Below, one piece after another: positions 9,801 through 37,437 of a stretch of DNA of 37,542 bases. Source of the stretch: a virus. The stretch is from the IMG/VR virus record IMGVR_UViG_3300031857_000570, positions 1 to 37,542 of that record. One strand, written 5' to 3'. The notes beneath the pieces are model-generated. The model did no database searches. It was not told the DNA's origin and saw only the letters and a program-made list of their open reading frames with translations. The translations under genes were made by a program, and so were the position numbers. Numbering within the stretch: position 1 is the first letter of the stretch; the number at the start of each line of letters is the position of its first letter.

Positions 9801-10811
9801 GTTCAACTGACTTGCCCAGGACAGATAGCAACTCTTGGTGGTATTACAACTGGTGGTAGAGGTTATACTTCAGGAACATATAATGTAACCTTCACAACTT
9901 CTTCAGGTACTGGTTCTGCAGCACAAGGAACTCTTACAATTTCTAATGGAACTGTAGGACAATTAAGTATTATTTCTGGTGGTGCAAATTATACTACTGG
10001 TGATGTTCTTACAGCATCAGGTGGTTCAGGTCTTCAAGTTTCTGTTGGAACAACTGATGGAACTGGTGCAATTCTTACACTTGGTTCTATTACAAGTGCC
10101 GGTATTGGATATACTGCTGGTGTTGGAGTTGGAACAACATCTCTTACATTCTTGGGTGGAACTGGAACTTCTGCAACAGGTCTTGCAACTATCTTTGATG
10201 GAGTAATCACAAGTTCCACACTTCTTCAGCAACCAACCACAGGAACTGGTGGAACTGTTTATTATTCAGGTTCTAATTATTCTACTGCATCAGTTCTTTC
10301 CGTTAACAGAACCGATCTGGCAAATACAATTACAACAATAACTACAAGTGGAATTTCTACATTTACATCGATCACAACACACGGACTATTTGTAAACGAT
10401 ATTATAAGAACTACAGGAACCTCAAATGGATTAACTGCTGGTGTTGATTATTATGTTGTTGCAACTCCAACAACTACAACATTTACTCTTGGAACTTCAC
10501 TTGGGGTTGAAGCAGCATTTACCGCAGGAACCTCACTTGCGATTGGTTTCTATCGCAATAGTGCGAATGCCGGTGGTCAAGTTGCATATACAAATGCAAT
10601 CGCAGGAGTATCAACAAACTATCAGGTCAGTGACTTATTGGTTCTGCAGAATGGAACAAGTGCAGATTATATTGAGTATGCTGGAATTGCAAATAATGAT
10701 ATTCTTGGGATCTTTGCTGCTGACATTTCTGGATCAAACGCAAGATTGTTAATTACTCCAACTTATCCCAATAATACAATTAGAGTTGCAAGACAGGTAA
10801 TGTTAGTATGA
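6879..10811 (+). CDS. 1310-aa collagen-like tail fibre with two Gly-X-Gln rods
   Basis: The N-terminal 84 residues contain a VGIGTTNATQELDVAGDTRL module and VSTGAGVSWTTPFAAG, closely matched in the fibre at 15741. Rod 1 covers about residues 85-455 and ends GSPGPVGG. A folded region (about 456-708) includes VGIGTDQVPFGVRLAAGG. Rod 2 covers about 709-878 with GLSNQG and GVGNQG breaks. The C-terminal head repeats GGRGYTSGTYNVTF/GIGYTAGVGVG modules and ends ADYIEYAGIANNDILGIFAA. Such alternating rods and heads suit a long trimeric fibre. The stop overlaps the start of the next gene by ATGA, so the two are translationally coupled. A structural/adhesive role is secure in outline; the receptor is unknown. 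Confidence 0.8.
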   Translation: MAKYLSNRQKNLKVGISSYTESQTVLEVTGKVGIGTTNATQELDVAGDTRLRGGLYDTYNQVGAGGSILVSTGAGVSWTTPFAAGLQGLQGTQGTQGLQGTQGVQGVQGLQGLQGTQGVQGLQGLQGTQGNQGLQGTQGVQGLQGLQGTQGNQGLQGTQGRQGTQGVQGLQGLQGTQGNQGLQGTQGNQGLQGTQGNQGLQGTQGVQGVQGLQGLQGTQGNQGLQGTQGVQGLQGTQGVQGLQGLQGTQGNQGLQGTQGNQGTQGVQGLQGLQGTQGVQGLQGLQGTQGNQGLQGLQGTQGNQGLQGTQGRQGTQGVQGLQGLQGTQGNQGLQGTQGNQGLQGTQGNQGTQGVQGLQGLQGTQGNQGLQGTQGNQGLQGTQGNQGTLGVQGLQGLQGTQGNQGLQGTQGNQGTQGVQGLQGLQGTQGNQGLQGTQGNQGLQGTQGLQGLQGSPGPVGGSANQVLYKDGTNTATGSGNLTFDGSNLYVGGNVTIGGTSVLIAASTLTVRDKDIIVGLATTAGGVVISNDTTANHGGIAVASTEGSPLFDINAGVGTDDIPSTYKQIMWVKSGTFTGLNTDAWLFNYGVGIGTDQVPFGVRLAAGGMQVTDTTISSPQINISGIATINKIDVNQISPDGTNYGGTNQVPVADGAGNWSWQPVSAAGAATSIAIQDEGSSKGNATILNFVGAGITASVAGNTATITLDIASLQGSQGIQGLQGTQGVQGLSNQGSQGLQGLQGLQGTQGLQGLQGVGNQGSQGLQGLQGLQGRQGLQGLSNQGSQGLQGNQGLQGTQGLQGLQGVGNQGSQGLQGVQGLSNQGTQGTQGLQGTQGLQGTQGLQGTQGLQGTQGLQGTQGLQGQQGLQGVQGLQGLQGIQGSNNGGVTVVNDVSTNALRYITFEDVTSGVSTNVGVSSTKLTFNPSTGNVGLGTTNPVATLQVKDALAFETTNTTTTTTSQVAVDTFATATFRSAKYHVQLTCPGQIATLGGITTGGRGYTSGTYNVTFTTSSGTGSAAQGTLTISNGTVGQLSIISGGANYTTGDVLTASGGSGLQVSVGTTDGTGAILTLGSITSAGIGYTAGVGVGTTSLTFLGGTGTSATGLATIFDGVITSSTLLQQPTTGTGGTVYYSGSNYSTASVLSVNRTDLANTITTITTSGISTFTSITTHGLFVNDIIRTTGTSNGLTAGVDYYVVATPTTTTFTLGTSLGVEAAFTAGTSLAIGFYRNSANAGGQVAYTNAIAGVSTNYQVSDLLVLQNGTSADYIEYAGIANNDILGIFAADISGSNARLLITPTYPNNTIRVARQVMLV
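7131..8245 (+). repeat. Collagen-like DNA repeat tract, rod 1 of the 1310-aa fibre
   Basis: Highly homogeneous array of GGAACCCAAGGTAATCAA, GGACTTCAA and GGTGTCCAG words. Long stretches recur with few or no differences, much more uniform than the 3276-4530 tract. Homogeneity suggests recent expansion or gene conversion. Confidence 0.9.
9009..9510 (+). repeat. Collagen-like DNA repeat tract, rod 2 of the 1310-aa fibre
   Basis: Gly-X-Gln coding array with regular GLSNQGSQG and GVGNQGSQG interruptions and a run of GGTCTTCAAGGTACTCAA units near 9355-9420. Confidence 0.85.
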
Positions 10812-12229
10812 GTATTATAAGAGACGGAATACAAAGTGCTGATTTAAATGCGCCAGTAGCATCACCCACACTCAATCTGGACTTTGCAAACTCACAAGAA
10901 TTAGACCCACGCATTACATTCACTCGGGGTTCGGTTGGAACTTTTGTGAATAAGAATGGATTGATTGAGACGGCACCAGCAAATCAACCAAGATTTGATT
11001 ATGACCCAATTAGTGGTGAGTGTAGAGGACTTTTGATTGAAGAGCAGAGAACTAATTTAGTTACGAATAGTACAAGTGCAACTTTTAATGGACTCAATAA
11101 TACTTCTACTACAACTGATGGAACATTAGCACCTGATGGAAGTCCTGCAAATGTTTATATTCCAAATTCAGTTTTTATAATTCATTCAACTTCTAATCTT
11201 TGTACTATAAATTTAGATACGATTGGAATTGCAACTGGTGCTACTTATGATGTTACTTTTTCGGGTTGGGTAAAAGATTATAATAATAGTGATTTGGGAG
11301 TTTATTTTGTAAATGGTGCTTATCTTACACCATTTACAAATGCTACATATCAAACTAGATTAGCAAAACCAAAAAGTGCATCTTGGACTTCTGGTTCTGT
11401 TGGTACTGGATGGACAAGAAATTATGAAAAGATAGTTCCTTATCCAAATGGCTGGTACAGATTTATTCAATCCAGTCGTTATACAAGACAATCAAATCAA
11501 AATTCATTATTATTTGCATTTCAAATTTTTAATAATCGCAATACACAAACTTATAGTGGTGATGGAACTTCTGGAATTTATATCTGGGGACCACAAGTAG
11601 AATCAGCAGTATCACCAGCACAGGCACCATTTGAAACTTCTTATATCCCAACATCAGGTTCCACTGTCACAAGAAGTCCAGATTTAGCACGACTTCAAGA
11701 ACCTTATTTCTCTCCATTCTTTAATAAATTTGAGGGAAGTGTTGTTGCAAATTATAATGTTAATGCACCTGTAGATACTGGAAGTGTTTATGGTTTACAA
11801 AGAACTATGCACGTATTTTATCTTGGAGATAAGAATGATTCAACATATAATGGTTATGGAGTGAATGTTAATAGAGCAACTGCATTAGTTCATAGATTAA
11901 CTGGTCAGGCATTTGTTCAAACTACTAATGCTTCAACTGGAAGTGTTTATGCATTAAATTCTCCAATTAATAATGGGAAATTTTGTTTTACATATGACCA
12001 AAATAAACTTAAAGTTTCTTGTGATGCTGTTAATAGCATAACATCATTAAATCGTTTGGGAACTTATAATCAACAACAATCTATTACCACACAAGTTTTT
12101 AATGAAATTACTATTGGTTGGGGTAATAATTCTGGGTTTGGTACTAGATACATTAATGGAACCATCAAATCACTTCAATATTATCCAAAAGCATTAAACG
12201 ATGCAGAGATGTTATATCTAACGAGGTAA
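10808..12229 (+). CDS. Tail fibre/adhesin, 'FTRGS-GLLIEE-RTNL' family, copy 1
   Basis: This 473-aa protein is the first of three adjacent paralogues. The shared N-terminal block (about residues 20-85) reads LNLDFANSQELDPRITFTRGS, NQPRFDYDPISGECRGLLIEE and QRTNL. A beta-sandwich-like carbohydrate-binding region follows, with the segment FSGWVKDYN and then GDGTSGIYIWGPQVE. A marker GSTVTRSPDLARL leads to a C-terminal LamG-like domain (FEGSVVANYNV ... IKSLQYYPKALNDAEMLYLTR). This architecture is common in phage head- or tail-fibre proteins that bind surface glycans. The start codon overlaps the previous stop (ATGA) and the next paralogue begins 1 bp after its stop. Binding role inferred; no catalytic residues seen. 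Confidence 0.75.
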   Translation: MSIIRDGIQSADLNAPVASPTLNLDFANSQELDPRITFTRGSVGTFVNKNGLIETAPANQPRFDYDPISGECRGLLIEEQRTNLVTNSTSATFNGLNNTSTTTDGTLAPDGSPANVYIPNSVFIIHSTSNLCTINLDTIGIATGATYDVTFSGWVKDYNNSDLGVYFVNGAYLTPFTNATYQTRLAKPKSASWTSGSVGTGWTRNYEKIVPYPNGWYRFIQSSRYTRQSNQNSLLFAFQIFNNRNTQTYSGDGTSGIYIWGPQVESAVSPAQAPFETSYIPTSGSTVTRSPDLARLQEPYFSPFFNKFEGSVVANYNVNAPVDTGSVYGLQRTMHVFYLGDKNDSTYNGYGVNVNRATALVHRLTGQAFVQTTNASTGSVYALNSPINNGKFCFTYDQNKLKVSCDAVNSITSLNRLGTYNQQQSITTQVFNEITIGWGNNSGFGTRYINGTIKSLQYYPKALNDAEMLYLTR

Positions 12230-15070: not shown

Positions 15071-15748
15071 ATGAGAAAAGAAGAAGAATTGGAACTGCTT
15101 AAAAAACATCTTTTTAATATTTGTGGTCTTCATAATGAAAAAAATTCTGATTTAAACAGAGCAATAGCAGATGCAAAATCTCTGTTGATGGAATTATATC
15201 CAGAACCAGTTACAGAATGGTCTCAAGAAATTGAATGGAGAGTTTGTCCAGATTTTCCTGATTATGAAGTTTCAAACTATGGTGATGTAAGAAGATGCAA
15301 AGTTTGCACAAGAAATAGACAGTCATTCAAAGGAAAAATTTTAAAACCAAAAATAGATAAAAGAGGATATTATCAATATACATTATCAAAAGATAAAAAA
15401 TTTCATTACTTAACTGGACATAAATTGGTAGCAATTACATATATTGGAATGCCTTTAAATAAAAGTTTTGTAATTGCACATTTGGATGGAAGTAAATCTA
15501 ATAATTTTGTTGCAAATTTAAAATGGGTTAGCAATTCTGAAAATCAATTACACAGAAGAGTTCACGAAGATTTTGTTCCATTTAAGGGACATAATTCTTT
15601 GAGTGTTGAAGAAGTTAAAGATATTAGAAAAAGATTTATGGGAGGTGAATTGCAATCAAATTTAGCATCCAAATATGAGGTTTCTTACGGAGTAATAAAT
15701 AAGATTGTTAATAATGTAACATATATAAGGAGCATTTACTGTGTCTAA
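15071..15748 (+). CDS. HNH homing endonuclease with NUMOD4 domain
   Basis: This 225-aa protein has an unusual acidic N-terminal extension (1-50). A NUMOD4 motif (about 55-103) follows with WRVCPDFPDYEVSNYGDVRR and ILKPKIDKRGYYQYTL. The HNH nuclease core has H117 (GHKLV) and VIAHLDGSKSNNFVANLKW with H137, N144/N145 and N149, then SENQLHR. A C-terminal helix-turn-helix (about 177-221) reads SVEEVKDIRKRFMGG and NLASKYEVSYGVINKIV. Such free-standing enzymes cut intronless alleles and spread their gene into co-infecting phage genomes. Its 3' end contains the Shine-Dalgarno and GTG start of the next fibre gene, with an 8-bp overlap, so it has integrated into the operon without breaking expression. 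Confidence 0.88.
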   Translation: MRKEEELELLKKHLFNICGLHNEKNSDLNRAIADAKSLLMELYPEPVTEWSQEIEWRVCPDFPDYEVSNYGDVRRCKVCTRNRQSFKGKILKPKIDKRGYYQYTLSKDKKFHYLTGHKLVAITYIGMPLNKSFVIAHLDGSKSNNFVANLKWVSNSENQLHRRVHEDFVPFKGHNSLSVEEVKDIRKRFMGGELQSNLASKYEVSYGVINKIVNNVTYIRSIYCV

Positions 15749-17663
15749 TCTCATAGGATCTGGAATTGGGCAAATTCCGACAAATGGGATGTTGGGGAAC
15801 CTTGCGTTCCAGGATAAGGCATATGTAAATGTAGATAAGGTTGGTATTGGAACCACATTTGTTGATAGTGGAACAGCAGGGCAGATATTACAGGTTTATG
15901 GTGGCGGTGCTTATGTAAGTGGTTCTGTAGGTATTGGAACCACAAATCCATTAGACCCTTTAGATGTTGTTGGAGTTATAAGACCTCGTTTAGGTATTCG
16001 TGATTCTTATGGAAACGTAGGTGCTGCTGGGTCAGTATTAGTTTCTACTGGTGCTGGAGTTAGTTGGACAGCTTCTTTTGCTGCTGGATTGCAAGGAAAT
16101 CAAGGCGTTCAAGGACTTCAAGGTTCTGGATCACAAGGTTCACAAGGACTTCAGGGTACTCAAGGAAGACAAGGTGTTCAAGGTCTTCAAGGAGATCAAG
16201 GTATTCAAGGTATTCAAGGTATTCAAGGAACACAAGGTATTCAAGGATCTCAGGGACTTCAAGGTCTCCAAGGTGGTGGAGGGCAAGGTGCTCAAGGACT
16301 TCAAGGACTTCAAGGTTCTGGATCACAAGGTTCACAAGGACTTCAAGGACTTCAAGGTGTTCAGGGTCTTTCTAATCAAGGATCTCAAGGTCTTCAAGGT
16401 GGTGGAGGACAAGGATCTCAAGGTCTTCAGGGTTCTCAAGGTCTTTCTAATCAAGGTTCTCAAGGTTCACAAGGACTTCAGGGTACTCAAGGAAGACAAG
16501 GTATTCAAGGTCTTCAAGGAGATCAAGGTATTCAAGGATCCCAAGGAGCACAAGGTACTCAAGGAAGACAAGGTTCTCAAGGTCTTCAAGGAGATCAAGG
16601 TATTCAGGGTGCTCAAGGAAGACAAGGTACTCAAGGTCTTCAAGGAGATCAAGGACTTCAGGGTACTCAAGGAAGACAAGGACTTCAAGGACTTCAAGGT
16701 ATTCAAGGTCTTTCTAATCAAGGATCTCAAGGTCTTCAGGGTTCTCAAGGTCTCCAAGGTTCTGGATCACAAGGTTCACAAGGACTTCAGGGTACTCAAG
16801 GAAGACAAGGTATTCAAGGTCTTCAAGGAGATCAAGGTATTCAGGGTGCTCAAGGAAGACAAGGTTCTCAAGGTCTTCAGGGACTCCAAGGAACACAAGG
16901 TATTTCAATTCAAGGTCTTCAAGGATCTGCTGGTAGTGGAGGAGTTTCTGCTTGGTCCAGAAAAACTGCAATTTACACTGCAGTCACTGGAGATAGACTT
17001 ATTGCAGATACTTCTGGAGGTGCATTTACAATCACACTTCCAGCAACACCAACAACTGGAAATAGTGTAATTTTTGCTGATGGCGCTGATTGGTTCACTA
17101 CTAATCTAACAGTTGCAAGAAATGGATCTACAATTGAAGGAGTTGCTGATGATTTCGTATTAGATATTAAAGGAATTACTGTTGAATTTGTTTATGACGG
17201 AACGACTTGGGAAGTATTTGCATCAACAGGACCAGCAGGACCTAATGATGTAATCCTTGCTCAAAATGATACTTCAACCACAACATTATATCCTGTGATG
17301 GTTTCTAGTGCTGGTGTTAATGCTACACCAAAAGTTACGACAACCACAAATTACTTATCATTTAATGCAGCAACAGGTCAAATTACTGCTATTGATTTTA
17401 ACTCTGCATCAGATCAATCAATCAAAACAAATGTATCAAAACTAAATAACAGTATAGAAATTTTAAAAACTCTTTCTCCAGTCTCATTTAATTGGACTAA
17501 TTCTAATGAAAAGAGTTATGGTTTAATCGCTCAAGAAGTTGAAAAGATTTTACCAGAACTTGTTTCTGAAACAAATGATATTAAGTCTGTTCGTTACATA
17601 CCATTAATTGCGATGTTGATTGATGCTGTAGTTGATTTAGAAAAAAGAATTACTAACGAATAA
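15741..17663 (+). CDS. Collagen-like tail fibre with Peptidase_S74 self-cleaving chaperone domain
   Basis: This 640-aa protein starts at GTG, 7 bp after AAGGAGC (15727-15733). The N-terminus has VGIGTT modules and VSTGAGVSWTASFAAG like the 1310-aa fibre. A Gly-X-Gln rod with GSGSQG and GGGGQG breaks spans about 116-398. A beta domain follows (VTGDRLIADTSGGAFTITLP, about 415-490). The C-terminus is an intramolecular chaperone: SDQSIKTNVSKLNNSIEILK, SPVSFNW, SYGLIAQEVEKILPELV and SVRYIPLIAMLIDAVVDLEK. S557 and K562 have the five-residue spacing of the S74 Ser-Lys dyad. Family knowledge predicts cleavage just before S557, releasing an 84-aa piece after trimerisation. Confidence 0.87.
   Translation: MSNLIGSGIGQIPTNGMLGNLAFQDKAYVNVDKVGIGTTFVDSGTAGQILQVYGGGAYVSGSVGIGTTNPLDPLDVVGVIRPRLGIRDSYGNVGAAGSVLVSTGAGVSWTASFAAGLQGNQGVQGLQGSGSQGSQGLQGTQGRQGVQGLQGDQGIQGIQGIQGTQGIQGSQGLQGLQGGGGQGAQGLQGLQGSGSQGSQGLQGLQGVQGLSNQGSQGLQGGGGQGSQGLQGSQGLSNQGSQGSQGLQGTQGRQGIQGLQGDQGIQGSQGAQGTQGRQGSQGLQGDQGIQGAQGRQGTQGLQGDQGLQGTQGRQGLQGLQGIQGLSNQGSQGLQGSQGLQGSGSQGSQGLQGTQGRQGIQGLQGDQGIQGAQGRQGSQGLQGLQGTQGISIQGLQGSAGSGGVSAWSRKTAIYTAVTGDRLIADTSGGAFTITLPATPTTGNSVIFADGADWFTTNLTVARNGSTIEGVADDFVLDIKGITVEFVYDGTTWEVFASTGPAGPNDVILAQNDTSTTTLYPVMVSSAGVNATPKVTTTTNYLSFNAATGQITAIDFNSASDQSIKTNVSKLNNSIEILKTLSPVSFNWTNSNEKSYGLIAQEVEKILPELVSETNDIKSVRYIPLIAMLIDAVVDLEKRITNE
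16086..16935 (+). repeat. Collagen-like DNA repeat tract of the S74 fibre
   Basis: Gly-X-Gln coding array with a higher share of Asp, Ile and Ser at X (GGAGATCAAGGTATTCAA words) and breaks coding GSGSQG and GGGGQG. The composite block from GGTTCTGGATCACAAGGTTC through GGTACTCAAGGAAGACAAGG recurs near 16122, 16316 and 16761. Confidence 0.85.
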
Positions 17664-29108: not shown

Positions 29109-29440
29109 ATATTACAAAAATAACTGATTATGTCAGAGGGTGGTTCATTGGAAACTTTGAACCATCTCTTTTAAAAACTTCTGCTTTTGAAGTTGGTGTT
29201 CTTACACATAAGAAAGGAGAATACTGGGCTCCACATTATCATAAGGAAAGTATAGAATATAATGTTCTCATAACTGGCAAAATGATCGTCCAGGGAAAGG
29301 AGTTAAATAGTGGTGATGTATTTGTATTCGACAAAGGAGAAGTTGCTGACCCAATTTTTCTTGAAGATTGTACATTAGTTGTAGTTAAAACACCATCTAT
29401 TCCTTCTGATAAATTTGAGGTTGAGAATGAAATTCTTTAG
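29105..29440 (+). CDS. Small cupin
   Basis: This 111-aa single-domain cupin has motif 1, GEYWAPHYHKESIEYNVLITG, spanning about 38-58, with H44, H46 and E51 as likely metal ligands. Motif 2 is weaker (GDVFVFDKGEVADPIF). Cupins of this size in sugar clusters are isomerases, epimerases or small binding proteins acting on NDP-sugars or sugar acids. Motif 2 lacks an evident histidine, so the metal site may be incomplete. It overlaps the nucleotidyltransferase by 4 bp and the RuBisCO-like gene by 14 bp, the tightest packing in the cassette, which suggests the three products serve one step series. Confidence 0.75.
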   Translation: MNITKITDYVRGWFIGNFEPSLLKTSAFEVGVLTHKKGEYWAPHYHKESIEYNVLITGKMIVQGKELNSGDVFVFDKGEVADPIFLEDCTLVVVKTPSIPSDKFEVENEIL

Positions 29441-30665
29441 AGAACTTACTGAATATGAAAGAGATCGTTGCGTAGTTGCAACATATTACATCGAATCATA
29501 TGAAAATATTGGAACATTAAGGGATGCTGCCTGGAATCTTGCCATTGGGCAAAGTGTCGGCAACCCTAAAGTAAGAAATCGTTGGGAGAGTGATGAACTC
29601 TTTGAACTAGCATCTTGTGTCATCTATGCTGATGAACAAGAACTTTCTCAACAGACAAAGGGACAAGTTAAAATTGGTTTCCCCAAAGTTAATACTGACT
29701 GGGAAGGTGATGGCATTTCACATCTTCTTTGCCAACTGATGGGTGGGCAATTGGATATTGATGTGTTCAAAGTCTGTCGTCTTCAGAAATTGGAGTTTCC
29801 TGCTGATGTAGAAGCACAATTCCTTGGACCCAAGAATGGTATTGATGGGATTCGTAAGTTTGTCAATCGTTATGACAAACCACTTTCTGGTGCGATTGTA
29901 AAACCCAAGACAGGTATTTCACCACAAACTCTTTCTGAGATGGTGAAGGAACTTCTTGATGGTGGTGTAGATTTCATCAAGGAAGATGAAATTCTTTCTA
30001 ATCCTTCCTTCTGCCGTCTTGAAGATCGTGTAGAACTCATTTCAAATATCGTAAACAACTGTGGTCGTAATGTCATTTATACTTTCTGTATTAATGGTGA
30101 TCACCATACTATTCTTGATCGTGCTAAATTTGTTGCTGACAATGGTGGGAATGGTATTCATATTAATTTTTGGTCTGGTCTTGGGGTTTATAACTCTGTA
30201 AGAAAGATGGACCTGCCTCTGTTCATTCACTATCAGAAGAGTGGTGATAAGATCCTGACTGATAAGAGACACGCATTTGGAATAGATTGGGATGTTCTCT
30301 GCGACCTTGCTGGTCTGTGTGGTGTTGATACCATCCATGCAGGAATGTGGGGTGGTTATCTGAGTGATGATGAGAATGAACTTCGTCAAACGATGTCAAC
30401 ACTTCACAAACGGAATGTTCTCCCAGCATTGAGCTGTGGGATGCATCCAGGCATCGTCAACACCACTGCAGAGAAGTTCGGCACGGACTTCCTTGCTAAC
30501 TGTGGAGGTGCCATCCACGGGCATCCAGAGGGCACTCTGTCGGGTGCTCTGGCAATGAGACAATCTATTGATAAAACTCCTGGTCCAGAATTTCGTGCTG
30601 CCATTGATAAGTGGGGTTATGAAACTGGTGGTGGTTCTCTTCCTGAGTGGGTATTAGATTTTTGA
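29427..30665 (+). CDS. RuBisCO-like protein (form IV-type, probably not a carboxylase)
   Basis: The ATG at 29427 follows GAGG by 7 nt and gives 412 aa, full length for RuBisCO-like proteins. Conserved segments are GAIVKPKTGIS (155-165; K159 and K161 match K175/K177 of plant RbcL) and GGVDFIKEDE (179-188; K185, D187 and E188 match K201, D203 and E204). TIHAG (302-306; H304 = H327), PALSCGMH (S336 = S379) and CGGAIHGHPEG (359-369) are also present. By hand alignment several catalytic residues are replaced: Q270 at H294, K271 at R295, Y311 at K334, N46 at T65 and H99 at N123. This suggests an enolase, isomerase or transcarboxylase-type reaction on a sugar acid, as known for RuBisCO-like proteins, not CO2 fixation. 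Its 3' half is GC-richer than its neighbours. Confidence 0.88.
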   Translation: MKFFRELTEYERDRCVVATYYIESYENIGTLRDAAWNLAIGQSVGNPKVRNRWESDELFELASCVIYADEQELSQQTKGQVKIGFPKVNTDWEGDGISHLLCQLMGGQLDIDVFKVCRLQKLEFPADVEAQFLGPKNGIDGIRKFVNRYDKPLSGAIVKPKTGISPQTLSEMVKELLDGGVDFIKEDEILSNPSFCRLEDRVELISNIVNNCGRNVIYTFCINGDHHTILDRAKFVADNGGNGIHINFWSGLGVYNSVRKMDLPLFIHYQKSGDKILTDKRHAFGIDWDVLCDLAGLCGVDTIHAGMWGGYLSDDENELRQTMSTLHKRNVLPALSCGMHPGIVNTTAEKFGTDFLANCGGAIHGHPEGTLSGALAMRQSIDKTPGPEFRAAIDKWGYETGGGSLPEWVLDF

Positions 30666-30690: not shown

Positions 30691-31851
30691 ATGAATTTTT
30701 CTGTAGACAATTATACCAGATGGAAAGAAGATCTGATAAAAAATATTCGATATAATGATTATAGGGATGATCTTGATTGGAATGGTGGAGAGTTTCCAGA
30801 AATACCAATTAAAAATGTTGATCTTAGGCATTCAAACCATGGATATACTATTACTCAGAGCGAGTGTAATTTGAATAATATTAGAGATTACTTTTTTAAA
30901 ATCCGAGATCAGTGCAAATGTATTCTTGAGATTGGAGTTGATTGTAATGCAACCGCAACTGAAAGAACATCTACAAGAATTTTCTTGGACAATAAGTTAG
31001 ATGAAACTATCTACATTGGACTTGATCTTAATGATAAGAGTTACTTAAATGATGAAAGTAAAAATATTTTTACTTTCCAAGCAGACTCTTCTGATACTGA
31101 ATCTGTTATGAATTTCATTCAATCAAAGGGAATTTCTGAGATAGATTTTATTTTTATAGATGGTTGGCACAGTATTAACCAAGTTATGAAAGATTGGGAA
31201 TACACCAAATACCTTTCTGACTTTGGTATTGTTGGATTTCATGATACTGCATCTCATCCAGGTCCTCACTCATTTATAAATGCTTTAGACAAAACAAAGT
31301 GGAATATAGTTGAAAATCCATGCTCAAATAACCAAAATGATTGGGGAGTTGGGTTTGCCTGGAGATGTAAAAAGAAAATACAAATCATTTCCCATAGAGG
31401 TAATCTTAACGGACCAAATCCATCAAGAGAAAATAGTCCAGAGTATATTGATGAAGCAATTGCAGCAGGATTTGATGTTGAAATTGATGTCAGATGTGAA
31501 GATCATAAGTTTTATCTTGGTCACGATGGACCTCAATATGAAATTCCTATGACTTGGTTATGGAAAAGGAAAGATAAACTTTGGATTCATTGTAAAGATC
31601 TGAGATCATTGGATGTTCTCTCTAGTAGTCCAGTTGATTTTCACTACTTTTGGCACGATATAGATAGATACACACTCACCAGTAAAGGTATTGGTTGGGT
31701 TTTAGTTGGTCAGTTTCCATTCAAAAAATCAATCGTAGTTCTTCCAGAATCTATTCATTATTATGATAAGTATGAGGGGAACTATGATAGAATATTAGAA
31801 ACGATGGGAATTTGTACCGATAAACCATTATTTTATAAAAATGAGTTATGA
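30691..31851 (+). CDS. Fusion: class I SAM methyltransferase + GDPD-like phosphodiesterase domain
   Basis: This 386-aa protein has a good ribosome-binding site, AGGAGT, 7 bp before ATG. Residues about 55-225 form a methyltransferase: CILEIGVD (77-84), YIGLDLNDK (108-116), IDFIFIDGWHSINQVMKDWE (151-170) and GIVGFHDT (179-186). Residues 230-386 form a GDPD-like TIM-barrel. Its features are IISHRGNLNGP (H235, R236), GFDVEIDVRC (E264, D266), YLGHDGPQYEI (H278), WIHCKDLRSLDVL (K302) and HYFWHDIDRYTLTSKG. The GDPD family cleaves glycerophosphodiesters; this short subfamily is common in phages and surface-sugar loci. The fusion may act on a glycerol-phosphate-decorated glycan, an inference. It overlaps the next gene by ATGA. 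Confidence 0.8.
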   Translation: MNFSVDNYTRWKEDLIKNIRYNDYRDDLDWNGGEFPEIPIKNVDLRHSNHGYTITQSECNLNNIRDYFFKIRDQCKCILEIGVDCNATATERTSTRIFLDNKLDETIYIGLDLNDKSYLNDESKNIFTFQADSSDTESVMNFIQSKGISEIDFIFIDGWHSINQVMKDWEYTKYLSDFGIVGFHDTASHPGPHSFINALDKTKWNIVENPCSNNQNDWGVGFAWRCKKKIQIISHRGNLNGPNPSRENSPEYIDEAIAAGFDVEIDVRCEDHKFYLGHDGPQYEIPMTWLWKRKDKLWIHCKDLRSLDVLSSSPVDFHYFWHDIDRYTLTSKGIGWVLVGQFPFKKSIVVLPESIHYYDKYEGNYDRILETMGICTDKPLFYKNEL

Positions 31852-34685
31852 GCATTTCTGTAATTTGTGCGTGCAAAAATCGCAATTCCCCTCTTCACAT
31901 ATCGTTAAATTCTTGGTTAAATTTTAAAGAAATTACTGAGATTATTATAGTTGATTGGAGTTCTGATGAACCTTTAGGATATCTAACTAAACTTGATCCA
32001 CGGATTAAAATTGTAAGAGTTTCAGATAAAAAATATTTTAATCAACCACAACCTTTAAACCTTGCTGCAAGTATTGCGACTGGTGATTATATTCTTAAAC
32101 TTGATACTGATTATATAACTAATCCATATTTCAATTTTATTGAAAGATATTTTCCTACAGATAATTCTTTCACTTCAGGAGTTCATAATATCAAAAGTCC
32201 AGAATACTATGACGAAGAAACTGGTCTTTATATGATCGACAAATCTAGTATGAGTGATGCTGATTTGCAGGAATATTTCAACTCTTATAGCCCATACTTT
32301 AAGTATCTTACTGGATTTTTATTTGTTAGTAGAGAGAACTTTAATAAAGTTGGTGGATATAATGAAAATCTTGGAAAATACTATGCATTTGAGGATAGTG
32401 AGATTTATAAGAGATTGGAAAATCTTGGATTAACTCACAACAAAATGGATTATGATTATAATTTAATTCATATTCCACACCCAGATGTTAAGAGAGTTGA
32501 AAACTTTGAGGGTTATGATGAAAAAGATAGAGAATGGATAAATTCAATTCAATATGATCCAGATAGATGGCAAGCCGAATACTTCATTTCTCAATCACAT
32601 GTTAAACAAAATGTAGGAATGATTGGAGAAATTGATTATACATATGTCAATTCAAAGACTAAATGGGATGTTATTAGAGTAGATGAACAAAATTATTTTG
32701 CAGAAGATCTAAAAGTGGAAAATAAGTTAGATGGATTTTCAAGTGTTTATTATGTAAGTCTTGAAGAATGTGGGAATAGAAGAAGAAATCTGGAATTTGA
32801 ATTTGATAAGTATAATATCCAACCAAAAGCAATCATATCAAAAAGATTTTCAGAATGCAGTGATATTATTACAGGAAAATATGTTTATCAGTTAAATGAT
32901 GGAACAAAGGGATGTTGCATATCTCATCTTAAAGCAATTAAAGATTGGTATGAAAATACTGATGAAGACTATGGATTTTTCTGTGAGGATGATTTAAGTC
33001 TAGAAACAGTTGAATATTGGAATTTTACTTGGCAACAATTTATAGAAAGTATTCCAGAAGATGCAGATTGCGTTCAGTTACTTACAATCCGTAGTGAGTT
33101 TGATACATTTGAAATTCGTGAGAGATATTGGGATGATTGGGGAGCAACAGCATATATTATGACTAGAGATTATGCTAAAAAGATAATTGATACTTATGTC
33201 AAAGAAGATTCATATCATTTAGAAATTCCAAATCAAGACGTAATGCCTTTAATAGAAAATATTCTGTTTGCAAGTGTTGGAAAAACATATACTTACCCAA
33301 TATTTGTTGAAAATATTGATTTTAAATCCACTTTTGTTGGAAATGATGATGATGTAAGTGATGGTCAAAAAACAAATCATAAGAAGTCAAGAGAGATTGT
33401 TTTAAATTATTGGAAAAATAAAAATATAGTAGAAAAGACGGAACTTGAAGTCCTTTTAACGGAATATTCTTGCGATACTGAAAATCCGGAACATAATTTT
33501 AGTCTTGGTATTTGGTATGAAAATGAAGGACACACTGCCCCAGCTCTTTCATACTATTTAAGATGTGCAGAAAGAGCATATGAATCTAATTCAGATTTAG
33601 CATATGAAGCCCTCATTCGGGGTTCTTATTGCTACGAGAAGCAGGGAACAAGAGATGGAAGTGCAAGATCAATGCTCTGGCAAGCACAAGCATTTAGACC
33701 AGATAGACCAGAGTCACACTTTTTATTGTCAAGATTTGCAGAGAGAAGAGAATGGTGGCAAGATTGTTATATGAATGCAGATTTGGCACTTAGATATTGC
33801 AATTTTGACAATCAACCTCTTCGCACTAATGTTGAATATCCAGGGCAATATGGACTTTTATACTTAAAATCAATTGCTGCTTGGTGGTGGGGGAAGGGAA
33901 AAGAAACTAGACTTCTCCTACAAGAAATAAAAAATAATCATCAAGTTAGATCTGAAGATTTTGATTTAATTCAAAATCGCTTGATGGAATTAGCTACTGG
34001 ATATATTCCAGAATCTGAATTAAAGTACACTAAGAATACTGGTCAAGAGTTAAGATTTAAATTTAATGATTGTGAAAATATAGAGAGAAATTATTCGCAA
34101 GCATTTCAAGATTTATTTGTATTGACTGCTTTAGATGGAAAGAAAAATGGAACTTATCTTGAAATAGGAGCACAAGAACCATTTTATCAAAATAATACTG
34201 CTCTTTTAGAAACTCAATTTGAGTGGAAAGGTGTATCTATAGAAATACGTCAAGATTTGTGTGAAATGTTTTCTCAACAAAGAAAAAACACAATATTATG
34301 TCAGGATGCTACAAAAATAAATTATCTTAACTTATTGAACAATTTTAAGTATGGAAATATAATTGATTATCTTCAAGTGGATTGTGAGCCATCTAAAACT
34401 ACATTTGAAATCTTATTAATGATTCCATTTGATGAATATCAATTCAGAATTATTACTTATGAGCACGATTATTATGTTGATTTAACAAATTCATATAGAG
34501 ACAAATCTAGAGAATACTTATTGTCAAAAGGATATAAACTTCTTGTTTCTAACGTCGCACTAAATGAATGGAGTCCATTTGAAGATTGGTGGTATCATCC
34601 AGATCTTGTTGATCCTGCCATTGTAGAACAAGTAAAAAATATATCCGACATTACAGATATAAGGCACTATATGATTGAACGCTAA
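31848..34685 (+). CDS. Four-domain glycan enzyme: GT2 + GT25 + TPR-like + SAM methyltransferase
   Basis: This protein is 945 aa. Residues 1-250 are a GT2 glycosyltransferase (MSISVICACKNRN, IIIVDWSSDEP, DYILKLDTDY with D86-x-D88, YAFEDSEIYKRL). Residues about 296-525 are a GT25-type domain (SSVYYVSLEECGNRRRNLEF, KGCCISHLKAIKDW, DYGFFCEDDLSLE with E380-D-D382, DDWGATAYIMTRDYAKKIID). Residues about 545-715 are helical, TPR-like repeats (NPEHNFSLGIWYENEGHTAP, SHFLLSRFAERREWWQDCYM). Residues about 748-920 are an FkbM/Methyltransf-like domain (NGTYLEIGAQEPFY, DYLQVDCEPS). Two transferases, a scaffold and a methyltransferase in one chain could assemble and cap one repeat unit. It is last in the cassette and is followed by a strong hairpin. 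Confidence 0.82.
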   Translation: MSISVICACKNRNSPLHISLNSWLNFKEITEIIIVDWSSDEPLGYLTKLDPRIKIVRVSDKKYFNQPQPLNLAASIATGDYILKLDTDYITNPYFNFIERYFPTDNSFTSGVHNIKSPEYYDEETGLYMIDKSSMSDADLQEYFNSYSPYFKYLTGFLFVSRENFNKVGGYNENLGKYYAFEDSEIYKRLENLGLTHNKMDYDYNLIHIPHPDVKRVENFEGYDEKDREWINSIQYDPDRWQAEYFISQSHVKQNVGMIGEIDYTYVNSKTKWDVIRVDEQNYFAEDLKVENKLDGFSSVYYVSLEECGNRRRNLEFEFDKYNIQPKAIISKRFSECSDIITGKYVYQLNDGTKGCCISHLKAIKDWYENTDEDYGFFCEDDLSLETVEYWNFTWQQFIESIPEDADCVQLLTIRSEFDTFEIRERYWDDWGATAYIMTRDYAKKIIDTYVKEDSYHLEIPNQDVMPLIENILFASVGKTYTYPIFVENIDFKSTFVGNDDDVSDGQKTNHKKSREIVLNYWKNKNIVEKTELEVLLTEYSCDTENPEHNFSLGIWYENEGHTAPALSYYLRCAERAYESNSDLAYEALIRGSYCYEKQGTRDGSARSMLWQAQAFRPDRPESHFLLSRFAERREWWQDCYMNADLALRYCNFDNQPLRTNVEYPGQYGLLYLKSIAAWWWGKGKETRLLLQEIKNNHQVRSEDFDLIQNRLMELATGYIPESELKYTKNTGQELRFKFNDCENIERNYSQAFQDLFVLTALDGKKNGTYLEIGAQEPFYQNNTALLETQFEWKGVSIEIRQDLCEMFSQQRKNTILCQDATKINYLNLLNNFKYGNIIDYLQVDCEPSKTTFEILLMIPFDEYQFRIITYEHDYYVDLTNSYRDKSREYLLSKGYKLLVSNVALNEWSPFEDWWYHPDLVDPAIVEQVKNISDITDIRHYMIER

Positions 34686-34709
34686 GAGACACTCCACAAA
34701 CCGTCCACC

Positions 34710-34738
34710 AAGACCCTGCAGCGACCCTGCGGGGTCTT
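34710..34738 (+). terminator. GC-rich 12-bp hairpin after the glycan cassette
   Basis: Arms AAGACCCTGCAG (34710-34721) and CTGCGGGGTCTT (34727-34738) pair over 12 bp with one T-G wobble and a 5-nt loop CGACC. It begins 24 bp after the stop of the 945-aa gene. There is no long T run; it is followed by ATAGTATG. A second hairpin with the same design is at 36770. It probably ends the cassette transcript and/or forms a regulatory structure. Confidence 0.65.
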
Positions 34739-34743
34739 ATAGT
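34738..34743 (+). promoter_or_regulatory. Possible -10 box (TATAGT) directly after the hairpin
   Basis: TATAGT within TTATAGTATG matches the -10 of the clearer promoter at 36775-36803, where the same context follows the same type of hairpin. The -35 position here reads CCTGCA, which is poor, so the promoter may need an activator or be weak. It would serve the small gene at 34766 and the metalloprotease. Confidence 0.4.
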
Positions 34744-34765
34744 ATGTGAAGACAACCAACCGACT

Positions 34766-34867
34766 ATGTACTCCAATCTTGACCGTCTGATCTTTGTTGG
34801 TTCCTTTGTATGGTTCATTCACTGGGGAACTAAGGTTTCTGAAGCAGTCTTGAACTTTGTATTCTAA
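34766..34867 (+). CDS. Small 33-aa hydrophobic peptide
   Basis: A short frame beginning MYSNLDRLIFVGSFVWFIHW and ending SEAVLNFVF. Its TAA at 34865-34867 overlaps the ATG of the metalloprotease gene as TAATG, a common coupling arrangement. Residues 8-20 form a short hydrophobic stretch rich in aromatic residues, so it may associate with the membrane. It fills the space between the hairpin/-10 box and the protease, which would otherwise be an unexplained leader. No ribosome-binding site is obvious. It could be a leader peptide rather than a functional protein. Confidence 0.45.
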   Translation: MYSNLDRLIFVGSFVWFIHWGTKVSEAVLNFVF

Positions 34868-35283
34868 TGCTATCACTCTATACATCAGGTTCTAAGTACT
34901 CCAGGAGACGCTGTGAGAGCATTGTTTCCTGGTTTATGCAGAAGTACCTCAAAAGATACAATATTGAGATTGAAGTGCTTCACAGAGGTCTTCTGAGAGA
35001 AGGTGTGTGTGGATGGTGTATTGTAACTGATTGTAATTGGAGACCCAGAAGTTTTCTAATTGAGATTCACAATCAACTTTCTATAGAAGATTACACAAAG
35101 ACACTGCTTCATGAACTTTATCATATTCTACAGCATATTCGTGGTGATCTCCGTGATAAGAGAGGTATCCGTTGTTGGAAAGGTATTGATTGCTCTGAAC
35201 TGGATTATTCCGAACAACCTTGGGAACAAGAAGCACACTCAAAAGAACAAGAACTCTACGATGAGTACTTGACATCACTCTAA
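34867..35283 (+). CDS. Putative HExxH zinc metalloprotease
   Basis: This 138-aa protein has the zinc-binding motif TLLHELYHILQH (79-90; H82, E83, H86). A third ligand is probably in QPWEQEAHSKEQEL (E120 or E122), as in ImmA/IrrE- and SprT-like peptidases whose third ligand is a downstream Glu or His. The N-terminal half is basic and beta-rich (KYSRRRCESIVSWFMQKYLK, RPRSFLIEIHN). The size is that of a minimal protease domain. In phages such enzymes may cleave host repressors or defence regulators, but the target is unknown. A perfect -35 hexamer for the next gene is inside its 3' end. Confidence 0.75.
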   Translation: MLSLYTSGSKYSRRRCESIVSWFMQKYLKRYNIEIEVLHRGLLREGVCGWCIVTDCNWRPRSFLIEIHNQLSIEDYTKTLLHELYHILQHIRGDLRDKRGIRCWKGIDCSELDYSEQPWEQEAHSKEQELYDEYLTSL

Positions 35284-35297
35284 AAACTCTGTACAAT
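35269..35297 (+). promoter_or_regulatory. Strong sigma70-type promoter (TTGACA-17-TACAAT)
   Basis: TTGACA at 35269-35274, a 17-bp spacer, then TACAAT at 35292-35297. The -35 is consensus and lies inside the protease gene's end. Expected transcription start is near 35304, leaving about 19 nt before the ATG at 35323, with TGGAGG at 35306-35311. An early-type promoter read by host polymerase. Confidence 0.8.
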
Positions 35298-35322
35298 GAC
35301 CTTTGTGGAGGTTGAAAAAACT

Positions 35323-35541
35323 ATGAACTCTATTAAAGCTCCAAAGATGAAGAAACGATTTGTAAGTGTAACTCCGAAGAGTTCCAAAGCGTTCAATCGC
35401 TTTGTGAACATTATGAGTTCTCTGCATTCTTGTGAAGTAGAACAAGAGACGACCGATAAGTTCTTTCTTGTTTCTTTGAACAAACAATACTGCTTCTGGA
35501 TTCAGAAAGAAGGAAATGAGCACTGGGAGATTGGAAAATAA
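35323..35541 (+). CDS. Small basic hypothetical protein (early gene)
   Basis: This is a 72-aa protein from the ATG at 35323. An in-frame ATG at 35296 is rejected because it overlaps the -10 box of the promoter. The chain reads NSIKAPKMKKRFVSVTPKSS, KAFNRFVNIMSSLHSCEVEQ, KFFLVSLNKQYCFWIQKEGN, HWEIGK. The lysine-rich N-terminus and the NRF..(I/L)M..LHSC.VEQ block resemble a small protein conserved among T4-like cyanophages; its function is unknown. A strong early promoter suggests expression soon after infection, perhaps in host takeover. Confidence 0.7.
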   Translation: MNSIKAPKMKKRFVSVTPKSSKAFNRFVNIMSSLHSCEVEQETTDKFFLVSLNKQYCFWIQKEGNEHWEIGK

Positions 35542-35544
35542 ATA
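35537..35544 (+). promoter_or_regulatory. Late promoter-like box (AATAAATA)
   Basis: AATAAATA overlaps the stop of the previous small gene and lies 29 bp before the ATG at 35566. It matches TATAAATA at seven of eight positions. Its presence in an otherwise early-looking region suggests some of these genes are also transcribed late. Confidence 0.5.
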
Positions 35545-35565
35545 GTAGAAGAATAGGGAAGAACT

Positions 35566-35754
35566 ATGGTTGTGTTTCTTGCAACAACCATTATTAATTG
35601 CTCTGATGCCGTTTCTATTATCAATCGTCTTACAAAGGTTGTAGGTCTTACTACTCAACAACGAATAGAAATCATTTCAACAATTCAAAAATCTATTCCT
35701 TCTTGTCCTCTAATTATCAAACCCAATGAACCAAAAAGAACTTCAAGCAATTGA
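35566..35754 (+). CDS. Small hypothetical protein
   Basis: This 62-aa protein has GGGAAG upstream of ATG. It starts VVFLATTIINCSDAVSIINR, continues LTKVVGLTTQQRIEIISTIQ, and ends KSIPSCPLIIKPNEPKRTSS. Two short amphipathic helices (about 13-24 and 29-43) separated by a turn are likely. The hydrophobic N-terminus is too short and polar for a clear membrane span. No family is recognised. Its last 29 bp overlap the next gene in another frame, a sign of strong compaction. Confidence 0.55.
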   Translation: MVVFLATTIINCSDAVSIINRLTKVVGLTTQQRIEIISTIQKSIPSCPLIIKPNEPKRTSSN

Positions 35755-35917
35755 TTTGATGTTGGAAGACCTACAAACAAATCATCCAGAAATCCGTACT
35801 GTTGCTAAAGAGTTGGATTGTGAAACTGAACTTGAAGCACTCAAAGTGGAAATGCTTGATTATCTTTACTCAATAAAGTCTTATCTTTACTCAATAAAGT
35901 CTTATCACAATCCATGA
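35726..35917 (+). CDS. Small acidic hypothetical protein with tandem YLYSIKS
   Basis: This is a 63-aa protein: NQKELQAIDLMLEDLQTNHP, EIRTVAKELDCETELEALKV, EMLDYLYSIKS, YLYSIKS, YHNP. The first 45 residues form two acidic helices; the C-terminus carries a seven-residue repeat caused by a perfect 21-bp duplication (35861-35902). No domain is recognised. It overlaps both neighbours: 29 bp with the previous gene and ATGA with the next. Confidence 0.55.
   Translation: MNQKELQAIDLMLEDLQTNHPEIRTVAKELDCETELEALKVEMLDYLYSIKSYLYSIKSYHNP
35861..35902 (+). repeat. Perfect 21-bp tandem duplication
   Basis: TATCTTTACTCAATAAAGTC plus T occurs twice in direct succession (35861-35881 and 35882-35902), adding seven residues in frame near the C-terminus of a small gene. 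Confidence 0.9.
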
Positions 35918-36159
35918 ATGCACAGTATATCTACCTGACTATATTCTTTTGTATTGGTTATTTAATTATAACAGACCAATCAATAGCGAGGGCATTTCAT
36001 ATGTTCACTCAATTGGTAAGAGTTCAGTACGAAAAGACAAAGTGGTGGGCGCTACACAATCCAGCAAATCCAATCATTAAGTATTTGATTTGGCGTCGTT
36101 CTATGAGACTTGCTAAAGATTTGCAAAGAGAACTTGCAGAAAAATCAAAAGACGTATAA
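35914..36159 (+). CDS. Small membrane-anchored hypothetical protein
   Basis: This 81-aa protein starts NAQYIYLTIFFCIGYLIITD, a probable N-terminal membrane anchor (about 4-20). A cytoplasmic-type basic segment follows (QLVRVQYEKTKWWALHNPAN) and an amphipathic, basic tail (YLIWRRSMRLAKDLQRELAE). By the positive-inside rule the tail should lie in the cytoplasm. Similar single-span small proteins occur in marine T4-like phages without known function. Its ATG overlaps the previous stop. Its 3' end contains a promoter for the next gene. Confidence 0.6.
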   Translation: MNAQYIYLTIFFCIGYLIITDQSIARAFHMFTQLVRVQYEKTKWWALHNPANPIIKYLIWRRSMRLAKDLQRELAEKSKDV

Positions 36160-36162
36160 AAT
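36134..36162 (+). promoter_or_regulatory. Sigma70-type promoter (TTGCAG-17-TAAAAT)
   Basis: TTGCAG at 36134-36139, a 17-bp spacer and TAAAAT at 36157-36162, ending just past the stop of the membrane protein gene. Transcription would begin near 36169, 20 nt before the ATG at 36189, with GAGGA at 36176-36180. Confidence 0.6.
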
Positions 36163-36188
36163 AGTATGTGTAATTGAGGAATGGAATT

Positions 36189-36413
36189 ATGTCCAGGACT
36201 TATCGCAAAATTGATTACATTGGTAAATGTGCTCTTCGTCACCCTAAAACATCAAATGAACGAAAGCACTTGATTGGTATTCTTCAAGATAATCAATATG
36301 AAGATTATTTAATCTCAGGTCTAAATCATCTTCACCATCGTCTGTCTCACTGCCCAACTGCTTGGGATGATAAAGTGGTCTCAGCGTACTATGAGGAGGA
36401 TTTTAAGTTCTAA
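36189..36413 (+). CDS. Small hypothetical protein
   Basis: The ATG at 36189, 8 bp after GAGGA, gives 74 aa. A TTG at 36174 would add five residues and includes the ribosome-binding site, so it is unlikely. The sequence begins SRTYRKIDYIGKCALRHPKT and continues SNERKHLIGILQDNQYEDYL and ISGLNHLHHRLSHCPTAWDD, ending AYYEEDFKF. A basic N-terminus and acidic C-terminus are evident. Several His and Cys residues (C14, H17, H47, H49, H50, H54, C55) could bind metal, but there is no recognised zinc-finger spacing. Function unknown. Confidence 0.6.
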   Translation: MSRTYRKIDYIGKCALRHPKTSNERKHLIGILQDNQYEDYLISGLNHLHHRLSHCPTAWDDKVVSAYYEEDFKF

Positions 36414-36417
36414 ATAA
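36410..36417 (+). promoter_or_regulatory. Late promoter-like box (CTAAATAA)
   Basis: CTAAATAA overlaps the stop of the previous gene and lies exactly 29 bp before the ATG at 36439, the same octamer and spacing as at 953-960. Weaker match than the NATAAATA boxes. Confidence 0.4.
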
Positions 36418-36438
36418 CACTATATCTGGATAATACAT

Positions 36439-36747
36439 ATGCTTTCTACGCAATATCGTCTTCGTCTTGAGTTTATTTGTAGCAGAATTGAAAAACATGA
36501 AGAAGTACAATTAGAAGATATGATTTGGGCAGAAAAACTTGCTTCACATAATCGTTCTGCTGCAACAATTTTGAGAAAATCCCGTAGAAAAGCAGCAAAT
36601 CCAGACATGAACGAAGATAGTTTAGATGGGTTTTTAAATGCATTGGATTTAGGAGATCCAGATCCATCTAATCATCGTAATCGTTTTGATAGTCCTGATG
36701 ATATTGCAGATTTTTTCCATAATGGTGATGGAATGAGACGGGACTGA
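36439..36747 (+). CDS. Conserved-type hypothetical protein
   Basis: This 102-aa protein has an N-terminal helical part, LSTQYRLRLEFICSRIEKHE then EVQLEDMIWAEKLASHNRSA and ATILRKSRRKA. It is followed by an acidic, Asp/Pro-rich tail, LDGFLNALDLGDPDPSNHRN and SPDDIADFFHNGDGMRRD. The QYRLRLEFIC...LEDMIWAEKLA block resembles a protein widespread in T4-like cyanophages, whose function I do not know. The acidic tail suggests binding to a basic partner or mimicry of nucleic acid. It is followed by the second hairpin/promoter element. Confidence 0.65.
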   Translation: MLSTQYRLRLEFICSRIEKHEEVQLEDMIWAEKLASHNRSAATILRKSRRKAANPDMNEDSLDGFLNALDLGDPDPSNHRNRFDSPDDIADFFHNGDGMRRD

Positions 36748-36769
36748 ACCACTTCCAAAACTGTCCACT

Positions 36770-36796
36770 GACCCTTGACTTTCGCAGTCAGGGGTC
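36770..36796 (+). terminator. 11-bp hairpin overlapping a promoter
   Basis: Arms GACCCTTGACT (36770-36780) and AGTCAGGGGTC (36786-36796) pair over 11 bp with one T-G wobble around the loop TTCGC. It is 22 bp after a stop codon. The left arm contains the -35 TTGACT and the right arm is in the spacer of the promoter at 36775-36803. Design and outer arms equal those of the hairpin at 34710. Confidence 0.7.
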
Positions 36797-36803
36797 TTAT
36801 AGT
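36775..36803 (+). promoter_or_regulatory. Sigma70-type promoter (TTGACT-17-TATAGT) within hairpin DNA
   Basis: TTGACT at 36775-36780, a 17-bp spacer and TATAGT at 36798-36803, 22 bp before the ATG at 36826. Transcription should begin near 36810. The -35 and spacer are the two arms of a hairpin, so the same DNA may both end the upstream transcript and start the next. Confidence 0.75.
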
Positions 36804-36825
36804 ATGAGTATACAAAACAAAACCG

Positions 36826-37437
36826 ATGACCTACAAAGCAACTCTCAAAGTTAAGTTTGATACTGAGTTCGTCAATCAATCCTCTTATGGTGTGTATGAT
36901 GATGAAACTCTTCCCGAAGAGCATTATACCTTTGAGGTTCCTGCTCACGATCTGAATACCATTCAACTGTTCCGTTTCTTTGGAACTGTTGCCCGCACGA
37001 TGGGACATAATGATGTGGGCATTATGAAAGGTGCTGCATCTCTTGCATTCAATGATATGCGTAATGAAGAGGATATGAAAAGGGTTGCTGATGAGTTTGA
37101 CCTGAAAATGGCAGAAGATTATGCAAAAGAACTTCGTAAGATGCAGGATGAGATTTATGTCCTGAAAGCAGAACTTTCCCGTCTTGAGCAACCTGATAAT
37201 CCTCAATATACTGATGAGGAAATGGAGGCGATGACTGCTCAGAATGAAGTCACCACACAAACTCTTAAGAACGCACAAGTGGTTTGCCGCGATTGTGGTT
37301 CTAAATATGGAACATATTCTGTTGGTTGTTCTTCTGTTTGGGAAGGTAAGTGTGGAGTATGTGGAGAAACTAAAGGTGTAACTGAAGTTCGTGATTATGC
37401 ATATTTGACTAAAGGTATCAAGGAGTTGTCTGAATGA
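36826..37437 (+). CDS. Coiled-coil protein with C-terminal zinc ribbon
   Basis: This 203-aa protein has an N-terminal beta region (TYKATLKVKFDTEFVNQ, HYTFEVPAHDLNTIQLFRFF). A helical centre includes coiled-coil-like EDYAKELRKMQDEIYVLKAE (about 97-116). A zinc ribbon follows with C154-x2-C157, C168, and C176-x2-C179 (VCRDCGSKYG ... GKCGVCGETKG). C154/C157/C176/C179 are the likely zinc ligands. Proteins like this appear in T4-like cyanophages and may bind nucleic acid or a host complex; the role is unknown. It has its own sigma70 promoter and overlaps the next gene by ATGA, so it is probably early. Confidence 0.72.
   Translation: MTYKATLKVKFDTEFVNQSSYGVYDDETLPEEHYTFEVPAHDLNTIQLFRFFGTVARTMGHNDVGIMKGAASLAFNDMRNEEDMKRVADEFDLKMAEDYAKELRKMQDEIYVLKAELSRLEQPDNPQYTDEEMEAMTAQNEVTTQTLKNAQVVCRDCGSKYGTYSVGCSSVWEGKCGVCGETKGVTEVRDYAYLTKGIKELSE

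Follow-up and report, generated by a model that had tools for sequence, protein, structure and literature searches.

The stretch of DNA analysed here, referred to as the window, is the whole of the 37,542-base virus record IMGVR_UViG_3300031857_000570, whose relatives, as judged from similarity searches, are T4-like cyanophages. Two intergenic sites in the window each carry a stem-loop, and an earlier sequence-only reading had proposed that these stem-loops are under structural selection and that one element may both end and restart transcription. We describe here the composite element to which both sites belong, namely a 20-nt block, a gap that can hold the stem-loop, a -10 hexamer and a start codon. 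It is probably an early promoter in which an intrinsic terminator, serving the upstream unit, lies between an activator-like box and the -10. Direct similarity between the region and annotated phages amounts to a sole match of 108 bases, and a query with the 64-base element returned 16 weak records, from which the isolates examined afterwards were drawn.

Two hairpin sites at gene boundaries

All features of the two sites lie on the plus strand. The first site follows an open reading frame (ORF) of 945 amino acids with glycosyltransferase domains (31848-34685), whose stop codon (34683-34685) lies 3 nt 5' of a block with the sequence ACACTCCACAAACCGTCCAC (34689-34708). This activator-like box would be expected at about -61 to -42 and, together with its -10, matches our position weight matrix at 33.5 bits. 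Hairpin 1 (34710-34738; 12+5+12) is terminator-like for the upstream unit, as judged from its fold and from covariation in its same-length class, and is joined to the putative -10 hexamer of promoter 1, TATAGT (34738-34743), for which the weight matrix and the composition after the hexamer predict a start site at about 34750 (A). An ORF of 33 amino acids (34766-34867), read by eye, starts 22 nt past the -10, and its stop overlaps the start of the ORF at 34867-35283.

Between both elements lies a module of seven ORFs taken from the ORF list (34867-36747; 138, 81, 62, 63, 81, 79 and 102 amino acids), five of which were scanned against Pfam and gave no match. The second site begins with a stop codon read in the sequence (36745-36747), followed by the block CCACTTCCAAAACTGTCCAC (36749-36768), which is 29 nt from TATAGT and matches the weight matrix at 33.9 bits including its -10. 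Hairpin 2 (36770-36796; 11+5+11), again identified by its fold and by covariation in its same-length class, holds within its 5' arm a -35-like TTGACT (36775-36780) that a promoter scan placed 17 nt from TATAGT. The -10 of promoter 2 (36798-36803) is predicted by promoter scan, weight matrix and composition, with a start site at about 36810 (A), and the start codon of a listed ORF of 203 amino acids (36826-37437), which has no Pfam match, lies 22 nt past it.

Hairpin 1 is formed by the arms AAGACCCTGCAG and CTGCGGGGTCTT around the loop CGACC, giving 12 pairs with the outer A-T pairs included, and hairpin 2 by GACCCTTGACT and AGTCAGGGGTC around TTCGC, giving 11; each has one T-G wobble and a 5-nt loop, with GTCCAC directly 5' and TTATAGTATG directly 3'. 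The positions and these common features had all been correctly read from the sequence, except that the common upstream sequence, then taken to be GTCCAC, is wider and comprises the whole 20-nt block at 34689-34708 and 36749-36768, which is found in hundreds of relatives. Both folds are strong, at -20.6 kcal/mol for hairpin 1 and -18.3 kcal/mol for hairpin 2 (z about -5), and none of 200 dinucleotide shuffles was as stable. Stems of 10 bp or more that close a loop of 3-7 nt have four stem/loop placements in the window, compared with none in each of ten dinucleotide-shuffled windows, and GGGTCTTATAG without mismatch occurs within the window at both hairpin sites only. Rfam gave no match at gathering scores in the window, and none in 34640-36850 at E values up to 1.

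A 20-nt block at constant spacing from a -10 hexamer

We collected 252 non-redundant copies of the element, after near-identical copies had been removed by clustering at 85-90% and copies less than 40 nt from a locus start had been left out. They consist of 1) the block, CCACTTnnnAAACYGTCCAC, with the previous stop codon normally at its edge; 2) a gap, which is 28-30 nt long in 227 of the 252; 3) a -10 (TATAAT, TATAGT or TATACT); and, 4) a start codon, mostly 19-30 nt past the -10. In relatives the upstream stop codons cluster at -7 to -2 of the block.

The connection between block and -10 holds from either end. When CCACTTNNNAAACTGTCCAC was searched alone it was found in at least 120 stretches of the viral collection, and in 76 non-redundant rows among the matches listed the sequence downstream of the block varies freely, yet 61 TATAAT-like hexamers stand 28-30 nt on, against about 0.45 per position in shuffles. 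In the reciprocal search, by the 3' 16-mer alone, a block with no more than 5 of 17 mismatches was present in 29 of 43 copies, compared with 0.6% of shuffles. Moreover, a weight-matrix scan for block and -10 gave 446 matches at 20 bits or more across 2.09 Mb, a set that includes the training loci of the matrix, and 2 in the reversed sequence.

The composition that follows the hexamer resembles that of a promoter start, with A at +7 in 67% of copies, T at +8 in 71% and A at +9 in 60%, C being commonest at +6 (44%); such a CAT-like pattern is the typical start of bacterial promoters, and the region around -61 to -42, where the block would fall, is one in which activators bind. A match of at least 5/6 to the -35 hexamer TTGACA occurs in 34 of the 252 copies, with 3.3 expected from shuffles. 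The general promoter partner is thus the upstream block and not a -35, and we rejected the idea that all the hairpins belong to TTGAC-containing promoters. The sequence-only reading had seen the -35 and spacer of a good promoter in the arms of one hairpin, and this stands for copy 2 (TTGACT-17-TATAGT, 10 of 12 matches) as a minority feature that copy 1 lacks. An alternative view of the block as an inverted repeat (CAGTT/AACTG) was also dropped, because positions 4 and 13, both C in most copies (134 of 252), cannot pair.

These features bear on whether the sites could be simply terminators or 3'-end processing signals, with TATAGT an incidental neighbour. Stable hairpins immediately after stop codons are what such signals look like; however, copies without a hairpin also show the block, the 28-30 nt between block and -10, the (C)ATA pattern at the start and a constant interval before the start codon, and we consider this explanation very unlikely.

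The element is carried by the Kyanoviridae isolates S-SRM01, Syn9, S-CRM01, S-PM2, P-SSM2, P-SSM4, P-TIM40 and S-CAM7. Whole-genome scans of two isolates outside the matrix training gave 36 matches in S-SRM01 (3 reversed), most of them in the small-ORF region at 44.7-89 kb, and 14 in Syn9 (3 reversed), of which seven lie in the small-ORF region at 43-53 kb, mostly without a hairpin. A sequence-only model of the block, built from 70 copies of 120 eligible and run on 15 records, matched 13 of them: S-CAM7 (23), S-SRM01 (18), S-CRM01 (14), S-PM2, P-SSM2 and P-TIM40 (11 each), Syn9 and P-SSM4 (6 each), the podovirus S-RIP1 (2) and four uncultured records (4-13), although S-CAM7, which gave one training row, and the contigs behind G002 and G004, which also gave training rows, are not independent. 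Among the 15 records the model had no match in S-N03 or RB49. That the element might be a matter of chance or of faulty assembly, a view in whose favour we found nothing, has a negligible probability given the shuffle and reversed-sequence controls, and the presence of the element in isolate genomes already refutes it.

The proportion of copies with a hairpin varies between phages: 13/31 in S-SRM01, 2/11 in Syn9, and 12/25, 6/20 and 1/7 in the regions examined of S-CAM7, P-SSM2 and P-TIM40, counts that include some low-scoring and probably false matches. Since Syn9 copies are poor in hairpins, and S-N03 has block-free sites, block and hairpin are separable parts. Several P-TIM40 copies (44.5-56 kb, L300) have a repeated CACTACC(G) motif at roughly the same place in the gap, instead of a hairpin.

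Covariation and context of the nested stem-loop

Relatives of the window hairpins were gathered by means of the 16-mer GGGGTCTTATAGTATG, which is found in 101 stretches of the viral sequences, compared with 8 for its reverse. The 59 distinct places of the 16-mer, both window copies included, have GACC in hairpin register in 51 cases and not in 8. As many as 46 of the 51 form at least 10 consecutive pairs, which were selected for by the outer bases only and not by the inner arms; the exceptions are L010, L013, L032, L073 and L097. Two loci, L032 and L052, were dropped as chance matches to the 16-mer. A first MAFFT alignment was set aside as its 5' arms were mis-registered, so that covariation was counted in equal-length classes, and the set chosen by register was kept out of this count since selection on pairing favours pairs. 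The covariation score exceeded all 500 shuffles and every slid register in each of three equal-length classes. A count restricted to pairs in which both bases have changed gives a weaker signal, being reached by 4, 70 and 170 of 500 shuffles in the three classes, which fits few independent lineages. Homologous, covarying hairpins in relatives were one part of the test that the sequence-only reading had named for itself, and its claim that structure is selected is supported.

That reading had left it undecided whether RNA or DNA structure is under selection. Mismatches in the stems comprise 23 G-U, no A-C and 3 others, which suggests RNA and not DNA structure as the target of selection, though 19 of the 23 G-U come from the 16-mer class and probably represent few independent events. 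The same data bear on the possibility that block and -10 form an early promoter and nothing more, the inverted repeat being a feature of the DNA such as a protein-binding dyad or a cruciform. It is true that block and -10 persist where the hairpin is missing, most Syn9 copies being examples, and that the window class has a weak U-tract. A protein site, however, would not be expected to change its stem sequences completely while pairing is kept, and the G-U mismatches, with A-C never seen, are as expected for RNA read from the plus strand. The T-rich tails and the association with upstream genes given below also argue against a promoter without a terminator, and we regard that possibility as unlikely.

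Hairpins are not confined to the 16-mer class. Of 219 copies without the 16-mer, 113 have a gap with a fold energy of -8 kcal/mol or lower, compared with 15.0% of dinucleotide shuffles, and the 5' arm starts 0-3 nt past the block in 108 of these 113. Two layouts are seen, one with long stems that abut the -10, to which the window copies belong, and one in which a T-run separates a shorter stem from TATAAT. A canonical intrinsic terminator has a GC-rich stem and then a U-rich tract, and 68 of the 113 hairpins outside the 16-mer class have five or more T among the 8 nt that follow the stem. The hairpin is also commoner where a same-strand ORF ends at the block (99/149 copies, compared with 22/65 without such an ORF; Fisher p 1.2e-5, an optimistic value, as are our other significance values, since copies are related by descent and exchange and p overstates their independence), a test that omitted 38 of the 252 copies as too close to a contig end. 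This pattern fits the proposal that one element terminates and re-initiates transcription, two functions that we infer from sequence patterns. The hairpin itself is best described as an optional insert of the promoter.

Ends of similarity between relatives fall at elements in 344 of 2967 cases, where 119.3 would be expected (2.9-fold, compared with 1.3-fold at other ORF starts), an excess that is suggestive only, as the conserved sequence of the element can itself extend or end alignments. In one pair of loci, L066 (6372-6431) and L068 (3357-3416), the promoter half and the downstream sequence are common, L066 lacks the 5' arm and the block, and the break lies within the element, starting from inside the 5' arm, with TTGACA and -10 kept. 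It could be argued from the excess, and from the divergence of L066 and L068 inside the arm, that the element is primarily a recombination seam, the boundary of a mobile cassette maintained through modular gene exchange, its promoter and terminator functions being secondary. Quite apart from the effect of conserved sequence on alignment ends, recombination alone leaves the compensatory changes in the stems and the exact spacing unexplained, which makes this improbable as a primary role.

Several points weigh against a nested promoter and terminator. About half of the copies have no strong hairpin, and the hairpin is nonetheless present in 22 of the 65 copies without a detected upstream gene. 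The optimism of the significance values counts here too. The 16-mer class, including both window copies, has exactly four T among the 8 nt that follow the stem in every case (31/31); with so weak a U-tract this class may terminate poorly, and termination at the window copies, which is our inference, could be partial. S-N03 has sites with TTGAC, hairpin and -10 but no block, so the block is not universal. To our knowledge no protein that binds the block has been described, and the exact block finds no support as a host regulon, being present in 18 stretches of 257 Gb of bacterial genomes, 2 of them cyanobacterial, when about 30 would be estimated by chance.

We nevertheless favour the nested promoter and terminator, under which one transcription unit would give way to the next within a short stretch at each site, in the early small-gene region of a T4-like cyanophage. 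In the 5' to 3' direction the order would be the upstream stop, the block at about -61 to -42, the stem-loop in the 29-nt gap, the -10, the start site some 7 nt on and the start codon. Block and -10 would be the promoter of the next unit, the block replacing the -35 in most copies and being bound by a putative host or phage factor. Polymerase arriving from upstream would transcribe the gap, and the stem-loop would then end the upstream transcript or shield its 3' end. The new transcript would begin past the hairpin and so would not contain it, and thus one stretch of DNA could serve both functions. A more far-reaching version, which we put forward tentatively, is a class of promoters in which an activator-bound 20-nt box at -61 to -42 makes a -35 unnecessary and so has let the DNA between box and -10 evolve, in the same 29 bp, into the neighbouring unit's intrinsic terminator, with exchange at the seams shuffling early genes among phages and the putative factor coming from the virion or the host.

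Composite signals in T4-like phages and early transcription

Promoter-early stem-loops (PeSLs) of T4-like phages combine a strong sigma70-like promoter, including a -35, with a stem-loop that is an effective transcription terminator, and RB49 is the phage in which they were described. The cyanophage element resembles them in that block and -10 surround a stem-loop in one short intergenic sequence, and in its position between the small genes of hyperplastic regions, as in S-SRM01 (44.7-89 kb) and Syn9 (43-53 kb). It differs in the -35, since most copies have the block instead (34 of 252 match TTGACA at 5/6 or better), and of the window copies the second has a -35 and the first none. PeSLs also serve as points of genetic exchange; for the cyanophage element the 2.9-fold excess of similarity ends is suggestive of this, subject to the influence that its conserved sequence may have on where alignments stop. 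Read directly in the RB49 sequence, the hairpin fills the spacer between a TTGACA-like hexamer and TATACT and is therefore inside the promoter, so the principle of nesting is not new; however, the RB49 sites have a proper -35 and no match to the 20-nt block model, whereas the cyanophage hairpin sits between block and -10. Our best reading is that the element is the cyanophage counterpart of these composite promoter-terminator motifs: related composite signals are already known in other T4-like viruses, and what is new is a recognition block of its own that replaces the -35 in most copies. PeSLs are reportedly the subject of Arbiol et al. in 2010 and of Comeau et al. in 2014 in Genome Biol Evol.

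For S-PM2, one source names PeSLs and gives a potential stem-loop after S-PM2p038, at 11369-11391, and it treats this as a lone stem-loop in a region without dense PeSLs, where PeSL-mediated exchange is held unlikely (PMC4503421). The stem-loop falls inside one of our block-model matches (11352-11413), of which there are 11 across the S-PM2 genome. A search of the literature on cyanophages and PeSLs, whose reach did not extend to the key PeSL and Syn9 papers, found no description of a block with a nested hairpin. A novel early-gene regulatory element is said to have been reported for Syn9 and P-TIM40 by Doron et al. in 2016 in ISME J, and the copies at 43-53 kb in Syn9, a small-ORF region, and at 44.5-56 kb in P-TIM40 lie in the kind of place where such an element would be sought. 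The block is the obvious candidate for that regulatory element, which the composite element described here probably carries.

There is also a connection to the T4 late promoter, TATAAATA, in that the block and hairpin copies of L126, L144 and L164 run into a TATAAATA-like sequence and not into TATAAT, whereas the window copies have TATAGT and not the late motif. The hairpins of these three loci are T-tailed, and a late promoter may take the place of the 3' half of the cassette. Within the module between both window elements we observed a canonical TTGACA-17-TACAAT promoter (35269-35297), as well as late-promoter-like AAATAAATAG and CTAAATAA near 35541 and 36413. Elsewhere in the window an ORF of 416 amino acids (29415-30665), with glycosyltransferase and methyltransferase-like ORFs as neighbours, matches RuBisCO_large (PF00016, E 1e-42, catalytic domain), and a RuBisCO or RuBisCO-like protein seems unusual for a cyanophage; probable tail-fibre ORFs at 3192-6533, 6879-10811 and 15741-17663 contain very long collagen-like repeats (QGLQGTQG...).

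Two sources state that T4-like cyanophages lack homologues of MotA, AsiA, Alt and ModA (PMC2984593, PMC5780444), and the element bears on how such phages take over early transcription. A 20-nt block that keeps a set spacing to the -10 in abundant phages would be a well-defined bait with which to look for the activator. The nested hairpin would illustrate how, in a compact genome, the same bases can carry both the end of one signal and the start of another unit, and the whole may provide a simple sequence rule by which the boundaries of early transcription units can be marked in uncultured cyanophages.

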